DNA of 64,000 nt from Thioclava nitratireducens (GTDB lineage: Bacteria; Pseudomonadota; Alphaproteobacteria; Rhodobacterales; Rhodobacteraceae). Where the stretch lies: assembly GCF_001940525.2 (NCBI RefSeq), contig NZ_CP019437.1:3459501-3523500 (forward strand), written 5' to 3'. The notes beneath the pieces are model-generated. The model was not told where the DNA came from. It was given only the letters and a program-made list of their open reading frames with translations, and made no database searches. The stretch's first letter is position 1. The number at the start of each line of letters is the position of its first letter. Both the position numbers and the translations under genes were made by a program. Of this stretch, positions 10,451 through 17,548 are shown piece by piece.

Positions 10451-10507
10451 TTCGCCTTGGCCCAAATATCCCGGGGGATCTCCGGAGGAGATGGGGGCAG
10501 AGCCCCC
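10451..10507 (-). repeat. Intergenic palindromic repeat with two tandem hairpins
   Basis: On the minus strand, right after the exonuclease stop, GGGGGC-TCT-GCCCCC (10493-10507) and ATCTCC-TCC-GGAGAT (10478-10492) form two perfect hairpins with 3-nt loops. They are followed by CCCGGGATATTTGGGCCAAGG. A shorter copy sharing GGGATATTTGG and CAAGG occurs at 44139-44173. This looks like a dispersed REP-type element common in Rhodobacteraceae intergenic DNA and may also end transcription of the acetate cluster. Confidence 0.65.
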
Positions 10508-12603
10508 TACCCGTTCAGATCCTTGAGCAGCCGCCCGTGCTTGCGCAGCTCCGCCACCAATTCGCCGAACGTCCGCAACCCCCGCGCCTGCAGCGCCGGC
10601 AGCATCTTCAGGAAAGCATCCGCCGTCGCGACCGTATCGCCGATCGCGGTGTGGCGTGCCTCCTCGGGGATGGTGATGCCAAGCCTGTGGGTCAGCGCGT
10701 CGAGCGTGTGGCTCTCCGACTGCCCGAACACCACCGCCGACAGCAGCACCGTGTCGAGGATCGGATGATCGAACCGCTCTCCGATCGCGCCTTCCTTGCG
10801 ATGCAGGAATTCCATGTCGAAGGGCGCGTTATGCGCGATCAGCACCGCGCCCTCGGCGAAACGATGGAAGTCGCGCCCCACCTTGGCAATGTCGGGCGCG
10901 CCTTCGACCATCGCATTCGAGATGCCATGCACCTCGGTCGAGCCGGGCGGAATCGGGCGTTTGGGATCGACGAGCGTGTCGAAGACCTCGGTATCGATCC
11001 GCCGCCCGTTGACGATGCGCACAGCGGCGATCTGGACGATCTCATCGCCCTCGGTGGGCAGCAGGCCGGTCGTCTCGGTGTCGAACACGACATATGTCAG
11101 ATCGGTCAGTGGCGTGTCGGCGATCTCGGCGACGCGCTCGCGCGCAAGCAGGTCGAAATCGTAGACCACCGCGCGCGGCACCGGCTTCGGGCGTTTGGTG
11201 ACATGGCGCGCCTCGCGGAGCGGGATACACAGGCGCGCACGCGTGTCGCCCAGCTTCTCGGGCCAGATTTCGGCGGCATGGGTGGTGAGCACCCGGTGCC
11301 CGGTCACATCTTCCAGCCCGGTGTCGAGCGGTTCGGCAAGCCAGCGCTCCAGCTCTCCGATCGGAAGCGGAGCGCCTTCCCATTCCAGCGCGATCAGCGC
11401 GCCGGGACCGTCCTCTGTAATCTCCAGCCGGAAGTCGCGCCGGTCGGTCAGGCGACGCACCAGACCCGCCAGAAGCGCGACCATCTCGAACCCCTCGCAG
11501 CGCAGCATCAGTGCGGCCGTGACCGGGAGGATCGCTCCCCCTTCGGCGGCTACCCGCGCGGCCACCGCCTGCCCCAGATCGGAGGCGCGGATCATCGCGA
11601 GCGGCCACCAATCGGCGCGGTTCGCCTCGTGGCGCTCGAAAAATTCGTGGATCGCGGCGGAGAGGTGATGCGCCTCGGAATTGGCGGCCTCGCGAACCCG
11701 GTCCCGCTCCGAACCCGGAGCGGGCCCGTCGTCGGCGGTCAGGACCCCGATCAGCGATTGCAGCGCGGCGGCCGGGCGGCGGATGCGGTCGAACAGCTCA
11801 TCCATCAACTGCTCGCGCTGCGCATGAGCGGCCATGTCGCCCGAGACGTCGCGCAGCGTCAGCACGTAGCCCGGGCGCTTCGAGACGTAGTGATCCTCAC
11901 CCTCCGACAGCAGCCGCATCCGGGCGGCGAGCACGCGCCCCTCCGCCTTGGTCGAACACAGCAGATCCGAGGCCGCATCGGGGTCTTCCGTCGCAAGAAG
12001 ACGCTCATAGGCATGGGCGATGGGCGGCTGGTTGAGGTAATCGAAAACGCGCCGATCGAGCCCCGGCGCATGGGCCGAGCCCAAGAGCTCCACCGCCTGC
12101 CCGTTATAGAAGGCCAGCTGATGATCGGCGGTGCAGAGCAAAACGCCCACCGGCACATCCGACAGGAGCGCCTCGAGCCGCTCCTTCTCCTGCGCGAGCC
12201 GCGTCGTCTCGCGCTGAACGGCTTCGGTCAGGGCGTTGCGGGTCTCCGACAGGTGACGCGTGACGGAGGCCGCGGCGGGAGCCAGATCGCCCAGATGGCG
12301 CGCGATATCGACATCCATCTCGCCCTCGATCTCGGCGGTGGTGCGGGCGCGCAGCATCCCCGAGAGCCGCTCGATCGGTTTGGCCACGTTCTCGTCGAAC
12401 AGAAACCAGATCCAGGCGATCAGCCCAAGGATCGCGAAGCCCGCGACCGTGCCGCCGATCACCATAGCGTTCAGCAAATCGGGATCGCCAAGCCGGGTGA
12501 AGCCGAACCACAACCCCGCCACCAGCGCCGCGAGATTGCCGAGCGCGAGCGCGGCGAAGAACAGGAACACCCGGGTGCGCAGGGAGAGCCGGGTGAGATC
12601 CAT
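10507..12603 (-). CDS. Membrane PAS/kinase-like sensor fused to a DnaQ-type DEDDh 3'-5' exonuclease
   Basis: A 698-residue fusion. Residues 10-67 hold two membrane segments. A HAMP-like linker follows (about 70-145), then a PAS-like domain (about 146-255). The next region aligns with a histidine-kinase dimerisation box, but the segment DELFDRIRRPAAALQ (268-282) has Asp where the phospho-His should be. The following ATPase-like part shows no N or G boxes. The C-terminal domain (about 500-690) is an intact DEDDh exonuclease: D508/E510 in FDTETTG, D596 in HNAPFDMEF, H651/D656 in HTAIGD. The start ATG overlaps the receiver stop (TGATG). Exonuclease genes of this family accompany actP and DUF294 genes elsewhere, which suggests a role tied to acetate metabolism. 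Substrate and signal are unknown. Confidence 0.85.
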   Translation of the reverse strand: MDLTRLSLRTRVFLFFAALALGNLAALVAGLWFGFTRLGDPDLLNAMVIGGTVAGFAILGLIAWIWFLFDENVAKPIERLSGMLRARTTAEIEGEMDVDIARHLGDLAPAAASVTRHLSETRNALTEAVQRETTRLAQEKERLEALLSDVPVGVLLCTADHQLAFYNGQAVELLGSAHAPGLDRRVFDYLNQPPIAHAYERLLATEDPDAASDLLCSTKAEGRVLAARMRLLSEGEDHYVSKRPGYVLTLRDVSGDMAAHAQREQLMDELFDRIRRPAAALQSLIGVLTADDGPAPGSERDRVREAANSEAHHLSAAIHEFFERHEANRADWWPLAMIRASDLGQAVAARVAAEGGAILPVTAALMLRCEGFEMVALLAGLVRRLTDRRDFRLEITEDGPGALIALEWEGAPLPIGELERWLAEPLDTGLEDVTGHRVLTTHAAEIWPEKLGDTRARLCIPLREARHVTKRPKPVPRAVVYDFDLLARERVAEIADTPLTDLTYVVFDTETTGLLPTEGDEIVQIAAVRIVNGRRIDTEVFDTLVDPKRPIPPGSTEVHGISNAMVEGAPDIAKVGRDFHRFAEGAVLIAHNAPFDMEFLHRKEGAIGERFDHPILDTVLLSAVVFGQSESHTLDALTHRLGITIPEEARHTAIGDTVATADAFLKMLPALQARGLRTFGELVAELRKHGRLLKDLNG

Positions 12604-12992
12604 CAGGCCGTCTCCCCGTCGAGAATGCGGTGGACCTCCTCGCGCAATTCGCGCAGTTCGAAGGGTTTGGCGATGAACCCGTCAGCTCCGAGCGCGAGCC
12701 CCTTGCGGCGCTCCATCGCGGAGCCGCGCGCGGTCATCATCAGGATTTTCACATCGCCGAGGCCCTTGTCGGCGCGCACGCCTTCACAGATCTCGTAGCC
12801 CGACACTTCGGGCAGCATCACGTCGAGAAGGACCAGATCGGGGCGGGTCTCGCGGATCTTCTCCAGCGCGCCGCGCCCGGTGTCGATCCGGTCATGCTCG
12901 TAGCCCTCGCGACTCATCAGGTAGTCGAGCGCGATCGCGATATTGTCCTCGTCCTCCACGATCAGGACGCGATGTTTCCTCCCCCCCGGCAT
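12603..12992 (-). CDS. Single-domain response regulator (receiver only)
   Basis: A 129-residue CheY-like receiver without output domain. The phospho-acceptor is Asp57 in LVLLDVMLP; acidic residues E13-D16 bind Mg2+; the conserved Thr is in MMTARG and Lys in IAKPFE. It lies between the small membrane protein (4-nt gap) and the sensor-exonuclease (TGATG overlap). Since the adjacent sensor has lost the kinase histidine, phosphate must come from another kinase or a small phosphodonor. Confidence 0.92.
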   Translation of the reverse strand: MPGGRKHRVLIVEDEDNIAIALDYLMSREGYEHDRIDTGRGALEKIRETRPDLVLLDVMLPEVSGYEICEGVRADKGLGDVKILMMTARGSAMERRKGLALGADGFIAKPFELRELREEVHRILDGETA

Positions 12993-12996
12993 GGTT

Positions 12997-13533
12997 TCAT
13001 CCTCCTGCGCATACCGCTTTCAGCCCCGGGTCGTCGGGCGTGAGCTTCAGCCAACCGCCGCCCGAAAGCTCTCCGTCTTTCGACAGCGTGGCTCCGTTCA
13101 CCAGATCGGCGCGGCTGTCGGTCTTGCAGTCATAGACCGTCGGCACGGTCTGCAAATTCTGCCAGCGTCCGATCAGCAGCAGATCGGTCTCGACCAGTTC
13201 CGGCTTGCCCACGACAGGATGTTCCACCTTGCCGCCATCAACCGCCATGAAACGCGTGACCATCGGCACAAGGTAGGTCCAGGGCCGCCACGGCACGCTT
13301 TCGTCGATCTTCTGCAGCACGACGACCGTGTCGGGCATCTCGGAGCGCATTTCGGGAAACCACGAATATTCGCTCCAGATCGTATAGCCGATCAGCGCCG
13401 CGCCAATTGCTGCCGGCATCACCCATTTCGGCAGCTTCTCGCCGCGGATCCGCTTGCTCAGATGCGACAGCAGAAAGACCACGAGGGCGGCCAGCAGGCC
13501 CGCGGCGATGGTCGAGATGAAATCGTTCGTCAT
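12997..13533 (-). CDS. Small membrane protein of the acetate cluster, unknown function
   Basis: A 178-residue protein that I cannot place in a family. It has a TM segment at about residues 5-24 and a second at about 38-55, with a positively charged loop between (SKRIRGEKLPK). The C-terminal 120 residues (PDTVVVLQKIDESVPWRPWTY, VYDCKTDSRADLV) form a soluble domain with two cysteines, probably periplasmic. It starts 9 nt after the DUF294 gene and ends 4 nt before the receiver, so it is part of the same transcript. A role as sensor partner is inferred from position only. Confidence 0.75.
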   Translation of the reverse strand: MTNDFISTIAAGLLAALVVFLLSHLSKRIRGEKLPKWVMPAAIGAALIGYTIWSEYSWFPEMRSEMPDTVVVLQKIDESVPWRPWTYLVPMVTRFMAVDGGKVEHPVVGKPELVETDLLLIGRWQNLQTVPTVYDCKTDSRADLVNGATLSKDGELSGGGWLKLTPDDPGLKAVCAGG

Positions 13534-13542
13534 AAGCTCTCC

Positions 13543-15372
13543 TCAGCTCATCGCGCCTTTGCCGTGACCGGCGGCCGATTGCATGGTGCGCACCACCACG
13601 AAGGCATCGCGCAGATGCGAGCGTTCGAAATCGGACAGGTCCGACGGCGCAAGATAATTGTCGGGCTTGCGCCCCGAGCGCGCGAGATGCGCCTGGTTCT
13701 CCAGTCGCATCGATGCGATCAGGTCATAGGCCTCGACCAGATCGCGCGCACCGGAATGGCTCAGCACGCCTGCATGTTCCGCCTCGATCAGGCGCGCGCG
13801 GGTGTTCACCTCCGGCAGGCGGCCCTGCAGCGCGTAGATGCGCGCCAGATCGGTCACTGGCACCACGCCGTTATGCTTCATGTCGATATGATTGCGATGC
13901 TCGCCCGAGCGGATCGTGGCGAAACCCCGGATCAGGCCCAGCGGCGGGTGATGCTTGAGGCTGTTGGCGATCATATGCGCCACGAAGATCGAGTTCTTCG
14001 CCGCCTTCGCCAAGGTTTCTTCCTGCAACTGCTGGAACAGCCCCGCCCCGTTGCCGCCGATCGCGCGCAGGTCGAACATCACCGAGGCCAGCATCTGCGC
14101 CTCGGGGTTCGGCTTGGCGATCCAGCCGTTGAAATAGTCCCGCCAGACCCGGACCGGCTGACACCAGCGCGGGTTCGTCGCCATCATGTCGCCCGGGCAA
14201 TAGACGTAACCGCAGGCGTCCAGACCATCCGAGACGATCTTCGCGAACTGGCGGAAATACTCCATATCAGCCTGGGTCACCGCATCGTCGAGGATCAGGC
14301 AGTTGTCCTGATCGGAGACGCCTGTCTGCTCCTGTCGGCCCTGCGAGCCGCAGGCCATCCAGAGATAGGGCACAGGCGGCGGCCCCAGCGTCTCTTCGGC
14401 CATCTTCAGCAGCCGGCGCGTGACTGCATCGGCGATATCGGTGATCAGCCGCGTGATGACCTCATGGGCGTGATGCCCGCCCACGAGCTGCACCAGAAGC
14501 TGCGGAATGCGCGCAGTGACGGCGGCCATTTCCGGGACGGTCTCGGCGCCCGCCACATCGCGGATCAGCACGGCCGAACTTACGGCCTGAAAGCGGGTCA
14601 GATCGGTCTGGGTGATCATGCCCACGAAGCGCCCGCGATCGGTGATCGGCAGGTGCCCGACGCGCTTTTCCAGCATGACATGCAGAAGGTCCGTCCCCAG
14701 CCCGTCGGGCGTCAGCGTCACCGGATCGGGCGTCATCACCTCGCCTACCGGCGTGTCGGGTGCGCGGCCCTCGGCCAGAACCTTGTTCGACAGGTCGCGC
14801 ACGGTGACGATCCCAAGCAGCGAGCCATTCGCATCGGTCACGCCCAGAGAGGAGATATGTGCGTCGCGCATCTGCCGCGCGGCCTCGGTCACGGTGGTCT
14901 CGGGCGCGCAGCCCATCGGCTCCTGCGCCAGCAGATCAGCGATCTTCATCGTCGCGATGGAGTTGGTGCGGCTCTCGCCGCCGCGCACCCGGTTGAAGAA
15001 CCGCGCGAAGGCGGGGGTGTTCTGCGACAGCTCCCGGAATTCGTCGACTGGCAGTTCCAGCAGCACGGTCTCGGCGGTCGTGCGCGCGGTGGTCGCGGCG
15101 AGCCCGTCGCGCATCAGTCCGCGCTCACCGAATGTGTTGCGCGCACCGAGGATCGAGACCAGTGCCCCGTTCTGGTCGGTCACTTCGACCGATCCGCGCT
15201 TGATCAGATAGATGCCCTTGAGCGGCTCGCGATAGGAATAGACGGTCTGCCCGGCGGGCAACTCCCTGCGACGGAAGGAACTGGCGACACGCTCCAGCTC
15301 GTTGCGCGGCAGATTGTCGTAAGGGTGGACGCCTTCGAGAAATGCGAGGATCGGGGTCAGATCGGCGGCCAT
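13543..15372 (-). CDS. cNMP-binding/CBS/DUF294 nucleotidyltransferase-like regulatory protein
   Basis: A 609-residue soluble protein. A cyclic-nucleotide-binding-like domain spans about residues 10-130 (LIKRGSVEV, FGERGLM), a CBS pair spans 145-265 (SSLGVTDANGSLLGIVTVRD, VGHLPITDRGRFVGMI), and a GlnD-like nucleotidyltransferase domain begins near 338 with ACGSQGRQEQT and the metal-binding pair in SDQDN (D354, D356). DUF294_C follows. This architecture is widely encoded beside ActP-type symporters and a DnaQ-like exonuclease. Substrate of the transferase domain is unknown. The ATG at 15372 has AAGGAA upstream. Two strong hairpins separate it from actP. Confidence 0.92.
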   Translation of the reverse strand: MAADLTPILAFLEGVHPYDNLPRNELERVASSFRRRELPAGQTVYSYREPLKGIYLIKRGSVEVTDQNGALVSILGARNTFGERGLMRDGLAATTARTTAETVLLELPVDEFRELSQNTPAFARFFNRVRGGESRTNSIATMKIADLLAQEPMGCAPETTVTEAARQMRDAHISSLGVTDANGSLLGIVTVRDLSNKVLAEGRAPDTPVGEVMTPDPVTLTPDGLGTDLLHVMLEKRVGHLPITDRGRFVGMITQTDLTRFQAVSSAVLIRDVAGAETVPEMAAVTARIPQLLVQLVGGHHAHEVITRLITDIADAVTRRLLKMAEETLGPPPVPYLWMACGSQGRQEQTGVSDQDNCLILDDAVTQADMEYFRQFAKIVSDGLDACGYVYCPGDMMATNPRWCQPVRVWRDYFNGWIAKPNPEAQMLASVMFDLRAIGGNGAGLFQQLQEETLAKAAKNSIFVAHMIANSLKHHPPLGLIRGFATIRSGEHRNHIDMKHNGVVPVTDLARIYALQGRLPEVNTRARLIEAEHAGVLSHSGARDLVEAYDLIASMRLENQAHLARSGRKPDNYLAPSDLSDFERSHLRDAFVVVRTMQSAAGHGKGAMS

Positions 15373-15395
15373 GATCTTTTCCTTCGGGAAGTGGC

Positions 15396-15457
15396 GGCGC
15401 CCCCCCGGGGCGCCTGCCGGATTTTCGAGGGGCGGGACGAGGGCTCCCCCGTCCCGC
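15396..15457 (-). other. Two tandem intercistronic hairpins between actP and the DUF294 gene
   Basis: GGCGCCCC/GGGGCGCC (15396-15403 with 15407-15414) is a perfect 8-bp stem with a 3-nt loop. GCGGGACG (15432-15439) pairs with CGTCCCGC (15450-15457) and continues through a bulged A into GGG/CCC. Neither has a T-run on the minus strand, so mRNA stabilisation or processing is more likely than full termination. Confidence 0.65.
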
Positions 15458-15466
15458 GCCGCTGTC

Positions 15467-17206
15467 TCAGTGGTCGACTGCCGCACCGGCGCCTTTCGGC
15501 ACACGGATCGACTCGACGAGCTCCTGGATATCTTCCGGGGTCTCTTTCGTCGCGTTCGAGACGAAGTAGGCGACGATGAAGTTCAGGACCGCACCGATCA
15601 CGCCGAAGGACGTCGACTTGATCGAGAGGATCATCGGGTTCGCATCCGAGAACATGTTGGTGTCCGGGATGAAGAACCAGCCCTTGTGCAGGAAGATGTA
15701 GACCAGCGTGGTAATCAGGCCGGTCAGCATGCCCGCGACGGCACCGGTGTTGTTGATGCGCTTCGTGAAGATGCCCATCATCAGTGCCGGGAAGATCGAC
15801 GACGCCGCCAGGCCGAAGGCCAGAGCCACCGTCTGCGCAGCGAAGCCGGGCGGGTTCAGACCCAGATAGGTCGCGATCGCGATCGCAACGGCCATCGAGA
15901 TACGGGCGGCCAGAAGCTCGCCTTTTTCCGAGATGCCCGGGTTGATCTGCGACTTGATCAGGTCATGCGAGACCGCCGACGAGATCGCCATCAGAAGGCC
16001 CGCAGCGGTCGACAGAGCCGCAGCCAGACCACCGGCCGCCACCAGCGCGATCACCCAACCCGGCAGGTTGGCGATCTCGGGGTTGGCGAGGGTGATGATG
16101 TCGCGGTTCACGGTCAGTTCGTTGGTGTCGCCCGCATTGTACTCGATGCGACCGTCGCCGTTCTTGTCGTCGAAGGACAGAAGACCGGTCGCGGCCCAGT
16201 TGCGCACCCACGACAGGTTCTGATCGTTCTCGATCGCGGTCATCTCCACCGCCGGCTCGTTCACGCCATTGGGGTAGAAGGTCGAGATCAGGTTCAGACG
16301 CGCCATCGCACCCACAGCCGGAGCGGTGAGATAGAGCAGCGCGATGAACACCAGCGCCCAACCCGCCGAGGAGCGCGCGTCGGCGACCTTCGGAACGGTG
16401 AAGAAGCGCACGATGACGTGGGGCAGACCGGCGGTGCCGACCATCAGCGTCATGGTGAACAGGAACATGTTGAGCATCGTGTCATGCTGGCCGGTATAGG
16501 ACGCGAAGCCCAGATCGGAGACCAGACCGTTCAGCGTCGACAGGATCGGCTCGCCGGTGTTCACGTCGTTCGAGAACAGGCCCAGGCCCGGGATCGGGTT
16601 GCCGGTCAGCTGCAGCGAGATGAAGATCGCCGGGATCGTGTAGGCGATGATCAGCACGACGTACTGAGCCACCTGCGTGTAGGTGATGCCCTTCATGCCG
16701 CCCAGAACCGCGTAGAGGAACACGATCGCCGCGCCGATGAAGAGGCCGGTGGTGTTGTCGACTTCGAGGAAGCGCGAGAACGCGACGCCCACGCCGGTCA
16801 TCTGACCGATAACGTAGGTGATCGACGCCACGATAAGGCAGACCACGGCCACGGTGCGCGCGGTTTGCGAGTAGAAACGGTCGCCGATGAATTCCGGCAC
16901 TGTGAACTTGCCGAACTTGCGCAGGTAAGGCGCAAGCAGCATGGCCAGCAGCACGTAGCCGCCAGTCCAGCCCATCAGGTAGGCCGAGGTGTCGTAGCCG
17001 CCAAAGGCGATGATGCCCGCCATCGAGATGAACGACGCGGCCGACATCCAGTCAGCGCCCGTAGCCATGCCGTTGACGACCGGGTGAACGCCGCGACCGG
17101 CGGCGTAGAATTCCGACGTGGAACCCGCACGGGCCCAGATCGCGATGCCGATGTAGAGCACGAACGTCGCGCCAACCACCAGCAGGTTGAGGGTAAACTG
17201 ATCCAT
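15467..17206 (-). CDS. actP: Sodium:solute symporter of the ActP (VC_2705) subfamily
   Basis: A 579-residue inner-membrane SSS-family symporter for acetate or another short monocarboxylate. Conserved features include GADWMSAASFISMAG near residues 50-64, the helix segment LPHVIVRFFT near 261-270 and QTVALAFGLAASSIFPAL near 440. About 13 TM segments are visible. An extracytoplasmic loop carries an EF-hand-like DDKNGDGRIEYN (346-357) that lacks the final acidic ligand. It is preceded 21 nt upstream by its small DUF4212 partner. Acetate is inferred from the linked acs; pyruvate or propionate are possible. Confidence 0.92.
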   Translation of the reverse strand: MDQFTLNLLVVGATFVLYIGIAIWARAGSTSEFYAAGRGVHPVVNGMATGADWMSAASFISMAGIIAFGGYDTSAYLMGWTGGYVLLAMLLAPYLRKFGKFTVPEFIGDRFYSQTARTVAVVCLIVASITYVIGQMTGVGVAFSRFLEVDNTTGLFIGAAIVFLYAVLGGMKGITYTQVAQYVVLIIAYTIPAIFISLQLTGNPIPGLGLFSNDVNTGEPILSTLNGLVSDLGFASYTGQHDTMLNMFLFTMTLMVGTAGLPHVIVRFFTVPKVADARSSAGWALVFIALLYLTAPAVGAMARLNLISTFYPNGVNEPAVEMTAIENDQNLSWVRNWAATGLLSFDDKNGDGRIEYNAGDTNELTVNRDIITLANPEIANLPGWVIALVAAGGLAAALSTAAGLLMAISSAVSHDLIKSQINPGISEKGELLAARISMAVAIAIATYLGLNPPGFAAQTVALAFGLAASSIFPALMMGIFTKRINNTGAVAGMLTGLITTLVYIFLHKGWFFIPDTNMFSDANPMILSIKSTSFGVIGAVLNFIVAYFVSNATKETPEDIQELVESIRVPKGAGAAVDH

Positions 17207-17227: not shown

Positions 17228-17485
17228 TTACTCTTCGACGCCGTGCTCGCGGTCCAGTTTGTTCATCCGCCACGCATAGGTGAAGATGAGCACCAGGAAC
17301 ACGAGGATCGAGCCTTGCTGGGCGAACCAGAAGCCGAGATCAGTGCCGCCAATCTTGATGCCTGCCAGCATCGGGCGCAGCAGGATGCCGAAGCCGAAGG
17401 ACACGATGAACCAGATCACCAGAGAGATCTGGATGGTCCGGATATTCGCCTTCCAATAGGCGTTGGACGAGGATTTGTCCGCCAT
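17228..17485 (-). CDS. DUF4212 small subunit of the symporter
   Basis: An 85-residue membrane protein with two TM segments (about 18-36 and 50-70), an N-terminal YWKANIRTIQISL and the central GFGILLRPMLAG that mark DUF4212. Such proteins are encoded directly upstream of VC_2705-type symporters and are thought to be a small accessory subunit, analogous to YjcH beside ActP in enterobacteria. The ATG at 17485 is supported by AGGGAG upstream; in-frame codons further upstream belong to the leader. Confidence 0.9.
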   Translation of the reverse strand: MADKSSSNAYWKANIRTIQISLVIWFIVSFGFGILLRPMLAGIKIGGTDLGFWFAQQGSILVFLVLIFTYAWRMNKLDREHGVEE

Positions 17486-17515
17486 GAGACTAACTCCCTT
17501 TAGTTTCTCTCCAGA

Positions 17516-17534
17516 CGGGCCCCTCATGGGCCCG
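17516..17534 (-). other. Intercistronic hairpin between adk and the DUF4212 gene
   Basis: CGGGCCC (17516-17522) pairs perfectly with GGGCCCG (17528-17534) around a 5-nt loop. It lies in the 63-bp gap after adk. No T-run follows on the minus strand, so it may set the 5' end or stability of the transporter mRNA rather than stop transcription. Confidence 0.6.
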
Positions 17535-17548
17535 CCCCTCCCCAAAAA

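Follow-up and report, generated by a model that had tools for sequence, protein, structure and literature searches.

A PAS sensor with a decayed histidine kinase core and a DEDDh exonuclease, possibly controlled by a single-domain response regulator

Here we describe a membrane protein of Thioclava nitratireducens in which a PAS sensor and a dead histidine kinase core are joined, within one reading frame, to an apparently live DEDDh exonuclease, a picture supported alike by profiles, by a structural model and by residue counts across the fusion family. The gene lies in the window (the whole 64,000-nucleotide stretch of DNA analysed here) and shares an operon with a single-domain response regulator (RR), a DUF294 nucleotidyltransferase and a solute symporter pair. 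The first-pass annotation of this DNA had already arrived at a sensor with a dead kinase, and this part is borne out; it had missed the conserved RR, DUF294 and symporter-pair partners. Our preferred reading, to which we assign a probability of roughly one half (0.52), is that a membrane DEDDh exonuclease would be set by its PAS domain and by docking of the RR on the pseudokinase, and would act together with the DUF294 protein in organic-acid use. New in this work are the joint loss of RR and kinase core, the decay of the DHp helices where the RR is missing, the existence of exonuclease-DUF294 fusions in other Alphaproteobacteria and a possible counterpart in PP_0353 of Pseudomonas putida.

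The fusion gene (10507..12603, reverse strand, as are all of its parts given below) encodes 698 residues. Two transmembrane helices open the protein: residues 8-38 (12490..12582), a helix in the full-length model and hydrophobic in sequence, and residues 41-90 (12334..12483), which in the model run on into a HAMP-like linker. They are followed by a PAS domain (residues 141-253, 11845..12183; weak PAS_4/PAS_8 profile matches), a DHp-like helix pair (residues 254-329, 11617..11844) with the acceptor site D272, a docking-type R275 and P277, a CA-like domain of Bergerat fold that lacks N and G boxes (residues 333-467, 11203..11607) and the DEDDh exonuclease (residues 503-673, 10585..11097) with D508, E510, D596, H651 and D656. 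The same single-frame architecture had been proposed from the letters at first pass, and structure prediction of the full protein (60 sequences; mean pLDDT 85) agrees with it: two long helices with a very short intervening loop lead into a helical linker, then a PAS fold, two long helices, an alpha/beta domain and a C-terminal RNase_T-type domain. The loop between the transmembrane helices is too short to accommodate a periplasmic sensor domain. PAS_4 and PAS_8 are matched by 45 and 47 of 60 fusion members (Pfam, E <= 1), and in profile comparison the PAS domain matches those of WalK and CovS; the linker has no HAMP profile support among the 25 Pfam families shown for 60 members.

Profile and structure comparisons identify the middle of the fusion as a decayed histidine kinase fold, composed of a two-helix DHp and a Bergerat CA domain. 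In HisKA domains, the acceptor His, the Glu at +1 and the Thr or Asn at +4 are the positions for kinase and phosphatase chemistry. Among 211 distinct fusions, none of the 164 having a residue at the acceptor position has His there; Asp (100) and Glu (41) together account for 141/164, and Tyr is not found at the site. The window protein carries D272, the Asp-for-His replacement described at first pass, and its +1 and +4 positions are altered as well (R273 and R276). The missing N and G boxes, likewise pointed out earlier, are a property of the whole family: the N-box pattern occurs in 0/211 fusions, and scattered matches to the G1 (9/211) and G2 (3/211) patterns never fall at the expected place in the CA domain (in locus L175, a G1-like stretch lies near residue 449, away from it). 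When compared with HisKA and HATPase profiles, the region is a degenerate DHp-CA fold without acceptor His and boxes; the window protein has no HisKA or HATPase match in Pfam at E <= 1, and neither family is among the 25 shown for 60 fusion members. An intact HisKA histidine elsewhere in the protein, named beforehand as the finding that would speak against a dead kinase, was not found in the window protein, where even a loose H-box pattern is absent; the pattern occurs in 4/211 fusions, always outside the DHp helix. A live histidine kinase-nuclease ancestor was considered too, and by pattern there is none in the fetched class and phylum loci.

The exonuclease domain matches PF00929 (E 3.5e-36), and the five DEDDh residues reported earlier for the window protein are kept in 211/211 distinct fusions. 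Judged from its sequence, the domain is predicted to carry out 3'-5' nuclease catalysis, and its activity is probably located at the membrane. The nearest solved relatives are the proofreading domains of PolC and DnaQ, which have the DEDDh fold and the five catalytic residues in common with it, and some sources name the fusion DNA polymerase III subunit epsilon. DnaQ and PolC are polymerase-associated, whereas the window exonuclease is fused to a sensor, occupies a separate branch and falls below the dnaQ_proteo cut-off (114.5 of 222.7 bits), which L002, a separate gene of the window genome, passes with 278.5 bits. A quick-method exonuclease tree places the sensor fusions in a single group (support 82), separate from a DnaQ cluster (support 99) in which L302 and L306 also pass the dnaQ_proteo cut-off; DUF294-fused exonucleases form another group (support 93), and L182, L185 and L186 sit on long branches without a placement. 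Two further loci, L183 and L184, have DnaQ-side exonucleases at the C-terminus of frames of 715-766 codons; the first 480-530 codons match no other Pfam family at E <= 0.1, and these frames may include non-coding upstream sequence.

The fusion is present in several classes of Pseudomonadota, and its nearest named relatives belong to Thioclava, within the Rhodobacteraceae. An assembly join or chimera, the artefact against which the first-pass annotation had cautioned, is ruled out by the recurrence of the full frame in many unrelated genomes; both halves belong to a single gene in many independent genomes. At the search threshold, the N-terminal profile matches 44/385 genomes of the class, where L108-L122 and L130 are the fusions in addition to that of the window, and many of the weaker matches are ordinary histidine kinases with H-boxes. 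The phylum search gives matches in 365/398 genomes, most by exonuclease domains alone, together with full-length fusions in several families outside the window's class. One of these outside groups has named records of Magnetococcales, some annotated as histidine kinase; Acidiferrobacterales and Competibacteraceae lie further off. A core-less form, in which transmembrane helices, PAS domain and exonuclease follow each other in open frames of 467-566 codons, is found at L025, L026, L116, L117, L121, L122 and L130. L002, L012, L032, L063 and L102 were left out of the 94-row set. In P0258, a protein named acetate-CoA ligase on a 6.5 kb contig, the first ~310 residues are those of the fusion family and the sequence then continues in mid-ligase; we set this ligase fusion aside as probably an assembly join.

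Immediately upstream of the fusion gene, a gene for a single-domain RR of 129 residues (12603..12992, reverse strand; Response_reg, E 4e-26) ends in a stop that overlaps the fusion ATG (TGATG). Further upstream and on the same strand are the small membrane protein P178, which matches no family above cut-off (12997..13533), a cNMP-CBS-DUF294-DUF294_C nucleotidyltransferase identified by Pfam and carrying the motif GSQGRQEQ...DQD (13543..15504; the listed start of this reading frame may lie too far upstream), a VC_2705-type sodium/solute symporter (15467..17206; TIGR03648, 821 bits) and a DUF4212 symporter small subunit (17228..17545; TIGR03647 and PF13937), upstream of which adk follows on the same strand. 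ActP models match the VC_2705-type symporter only below their cut-offs (NF006903: 190 of 750 bits). The window has an RNase_T gene, a CBS/DUF294 gene and an adjoining solute symporter of the ActP superfamily, and the neighbourhood of DUF294 and symporter recurs outside the window's family (L167, L168, L189, L190 and L195). P178 lies between DUF294 and RR in nearly all operons of the window's family, even where the RR is gone, and is possibly a further part of the system. At L290, which holds a core-bearing fusion, none of the usual operon genes was detected upstream.

The relation between RR and kinase core was followed in a sample of 198 genomes of the window's family, one per genus, drawn from a larger group. 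A strong exonuclease match is present in 85/198, the window's own genome included; the other 84 loci were fetched with their flanks, and 82 genera were left once L240, whose N-terminal part is missing, and the partial L271 had been dropped. Core and RR are both present in 32 of these, the core alone in 7, neither in 43 and the RR alone in 0, such that an upstream single-domain RR accompanies 32/39 core-bearing and 0/43 core-less genera; the fetched regions, taken over their whole length, gave no RR in the 43 core-less genera or in the 7 that have the core alone. The DHp motif RxPxx[ANSG][LMI] is present in 25/32 proteins with an RR and in 0/7 without, and Arg at +3 in 31/32 with an RR versus 1/7 RR-less proteins that retain all or part of the core. 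When 25 loci from further families and classes are included, Arg at +3 (by a loose motif) is seen in 51/52 loci with an adjacent RR and 4/55 without, and the RR gene lies directly upstream in 52/62 core-bearing loci of this wider set. The RRs keep the phosphorylation site and look fully phosphorylatable: in an alignment that includes the window and takes the best match at each locus, provided that it scores above 60 bits, D57 and K109 are conserved in 136/136, T/S87 in 135 and D14 in 134. The co-loss of RR and core suggests that the kinase core still works as an input that reads the RR. The earlier claim that kinase phosphotransfer is lost is supported, whereas the view of the core as merely output-less is called into question.

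The Fisher p value of 2.6e-16 for the RR/core pattern ignores kinship, and 41 of the 43 genera without the core belong to a single clade. On the first tree, the core changes three times and the RR four times. Among the 82 genera, independent pairs differing in the core are concordant in 2/2 cases, and those differing in the RR in 2/4, the other two being without difference (p 0.5). In the wider set of 107 rows, about four pairs are concordant, none is discordant and two are without difference (p 0.125), and the two sets agree in the direction of the pairing. As for exceptions, L195 and L169 have the core with no RR detected, L198 has its RR 4.6 kb away on the other strand, and L202 and L203 have no core but do have an RR next to DUF294. 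Since independent losses are few and such exceptions exist, the pairing is suggestive and not proven. RR control is also not essential to the nuclease, because 43 genera do without both core and RR.

DivL of Caulobacter is a pseudokinase with a Tyr acceptor whose core binds and senses DivK~P and shows neither kinase nor phosphatase activity; the residues required for DivK~P binding include R553, at +3 from Y550, and alphaproteobacteria without DivK are often without the DivL DHp-CA (PMC4211667). The DivL-DivK pair has in common with the window fusion a PAS input, a DHp-CA fold, a non-His acceptor, an Arg at +3 and a phosphorylatable single-domain RR as partner, and the tendency of kinase core and RR to vanish together, suggestive in the window family, resembles that of DivL and DivK. 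DivL has Tyr and keeps its N/G boxes, whereas the window family has mostly Asp or Glu and has lost the boxes, and DivL acts on the kinase CckA, whereas the window protein carries a fused DEDDh exonuclease. The fusion was rejected as a DivL orthologue, the Tyr acceptor and the histidine kinase boxes both being absent. GdpP/YybT resembles the fusion in layout, with two transmembrane helices, a PAS domain, a degenerate signalling-enzyme domain and then a phosphodiesterase. In GdpP these last two are a degenerate GGDEF and DHH/DHHA1, whereas the window fusion has a degenerate histidine kinase and DEDDh, plus an RR; a GdpP-type phosphodiesterase was discarded, as the window protein has no DHH/DHHA1 match in Pfam at E <= 1. 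Among the open-licence papers listed by our literature searches, no title or abstract opening describes the window fusion. Overall, the fusion appears to be a kinase repurposed in the manner of DivL, with a nuclease as its output and its own RR, the closest kinds known being DivL and GdpP-like layouts.

We infer that the fusion would be a membrane-anchored 3'-5' exonuclease with two inputs, a cytoplasmic PAS domain and the single-domain RR. Signal flow would be reversed relative to a two-component system, passing from the RR through the pseudokinase to the nuclease. The RR would be phosphorylated elsewhere, either by another kinase or by acetyl phosphate; the window genome has ackA and pta matches, which permit acetyl phosphate as an RR input. 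By analogy with DivL, the RR would bind the pseudo-DHp helices around D272/R275 and shift the attached nuclease. The nuclease in turn would cooperate with the operon's DUF294 nucleotidyltransferase when short organic acids, for example acetate or pyruvate, are taken up or used. If true, this would be another kinase core turned RR receiver, outside the cell-cycle pathway and with the enzyme directly attached, and a regulated nuclease would gain a defined switch.

Two other accounts of the core have to be weighed against RR docking. The core could be only a scaffold for dimerisation or relay between PAS domain and nuclease, with the RR serving another partner and their joint loss reflecting one historical deletion. 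The seven loci in which the core is absent and PAS is fused straight to the nuclease fit this account, as do the single clade of 41 core-less genera and the RRs kept without a core at L202 and L203. We nevertheless find it somewhat unlikely, because proteins without an RR show a decayed DHp surface motif even where the CA fold is kept, because the RR-less decayed state needs three changes on the tree, two of them forced by well-supported branches, and because of the RR gene lying directly upstream in most core-bearing loci of the wider set. Alternatively, the core might keep a phosphotransfer role, for instance as an RR phosphatase or with the phosphate on another residue, which would suit the strong preference for Asp or Glu at the acceptor and an RR that looks fully phosphorylatable. 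The changes at His, +1 and +4, the positions that serve this chemistry in HisKA domains, and the disappearance of the N and G boxes argue against such a role, making it very improbable.

The DUF294 nucleotidyltransferase is a likely partner of the fusion nuclease under the preferred, RR-controlled reading. By Pfam, the proteins at L177, L178, L180 and L181 begin with a DEDDh exonuclease and continue as CBS-DUF294-DUF294_C, and L179 has the same architecture by profile only; all five keep the DEDDh residues and the nucleotidyltransferase motif. The architecture is common in Hyphomicrobiales, and among the 120 matches listed of 2955, all carry RNase_T, CBS and DUF294, as the query would predict. 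These proteins unite a related DEDDh exonuclease with the nucleotidyltransferase, for which the window has a gene of its own. Unlike the window fusion, they have no membrane, PAS or kinase parts, and their exonuclease sits at the N-terminal place that the cNMP domain takes in the window DUF294 protein. Unfused exonucleases adjoin DUF294 at L182, L185 and L186. With DUF294 matches under 120 bits left out, the strict nucleotidyltransferase pattern is found in 82/83 and 85/104 DUF294 neighbours (L236 is without it), and a looser pattern in the rest of the 104 except three proteins cut by contig ends. DUF294_C has been grouped with GlnD/GlnE (PMC3710099).

Physiological evidence on a comparable gene pair comes from pseudomonads. 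P. putida KT2440 shows no defect on 20 mM acetate when PP_0353 (RNase_T) or PP_0354 is deleted; on pyruvate, deletion of PP_0353 delays growth and that of PP_0354 does not, and an actP-I mutant is impaired too (PMC9927547). PP_0354 is a CBS-domain protein and an MxtR/ErdR target, PP_0353 belongs to the MxtR/ErdR regulon, and their P. aeruginosa homologues adjoin actP; a transposon study cited in the same paper suggests a role of PP_0353 at 5 mM acetate, and the authors leave the mechanism open, speculating on mRNA decay (PMC9927547). Pflu5625, a CrbS/R target with cAMP-binding, CBS and nucleotidyltransferase domains, shows a negligible effect on acetate when mutated (PMC5715377). In the excerpts of PMC9927547 on which we draw, the RNase_T gene PP_0353 stands beside the CBS-domain gene PP_0354, as in the window layout, and in some pseudomonads also beside actP; these excerpts describe PP_0353 without mention of the PAS, transmembrane and kinase-core parts that the window fusion has. 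By domain and neighbourhood, PP_0353 is a possible counterpart of the window nuclease, and the symporter operon together with the PP_0353 literature points to an acid-related role of the fusion. The absence of a PP_0354 phenotype argues against nuclease and DUF294 acting jointly, or at any rate lends this no support.

The nuclease could instead be a general enzyme of nucleic-acid turnover or repair, placed in a symporter operon without functional link. Its nearest solved relatives, PolC and DnaQ, and the polymerase-subunit name given by some sources would agree with this, as would the lack of a common phenotype for the P. putida nuclease and its CBS-domain neighbour (PMC9927547). Against such a general role, the protein fails the dnaQ_proteo cut-off that another gene of its genome, L002, passes, the tree separates the exonuclease from the DnaQ cluster, the DUF294 and symporter neighbourhood recurs outside the family, and exonuclease-DUF294 fusion is common in Hyphomicrobiales; we judge it decidedly unlikely. 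A more specific form of the preferred reading, in which RR-controlled nuclease and DUF294 protein act together, is an eraser-writer pair. DUF294, answering cNMP/CBS ligands, would add nucleotides to a protein or an RNA 3' end, and the RR-gated membrane exonuclease would remove them; a signal of two-component origin would thereby govern a nucleotide mark tuning organic-acid uptake. This version is speculative and, as it stands, unlikely. If it were true, loss of the eraser would harm growth and loss of the writer would not, as with PP_0353 and PP_0354 on pyruvate, a result that fits unlinked functions equally well. More broadly, the unexplained pyruvate phenotype of PP_0353 turns into testable questions on a nuclease-nucleotidyltransferase pair found in many Pseudomonadota.

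Two observations concern the naming and spread of the exonuclease-CBS-DUF294 proteins. One source names them DNA polymerase-3 subunit epsilon/CBS. At L309, in a genome of the window's own family, the exonuclease groups with this type, and Rhodobacteraceae may therefore hold both arrangements.
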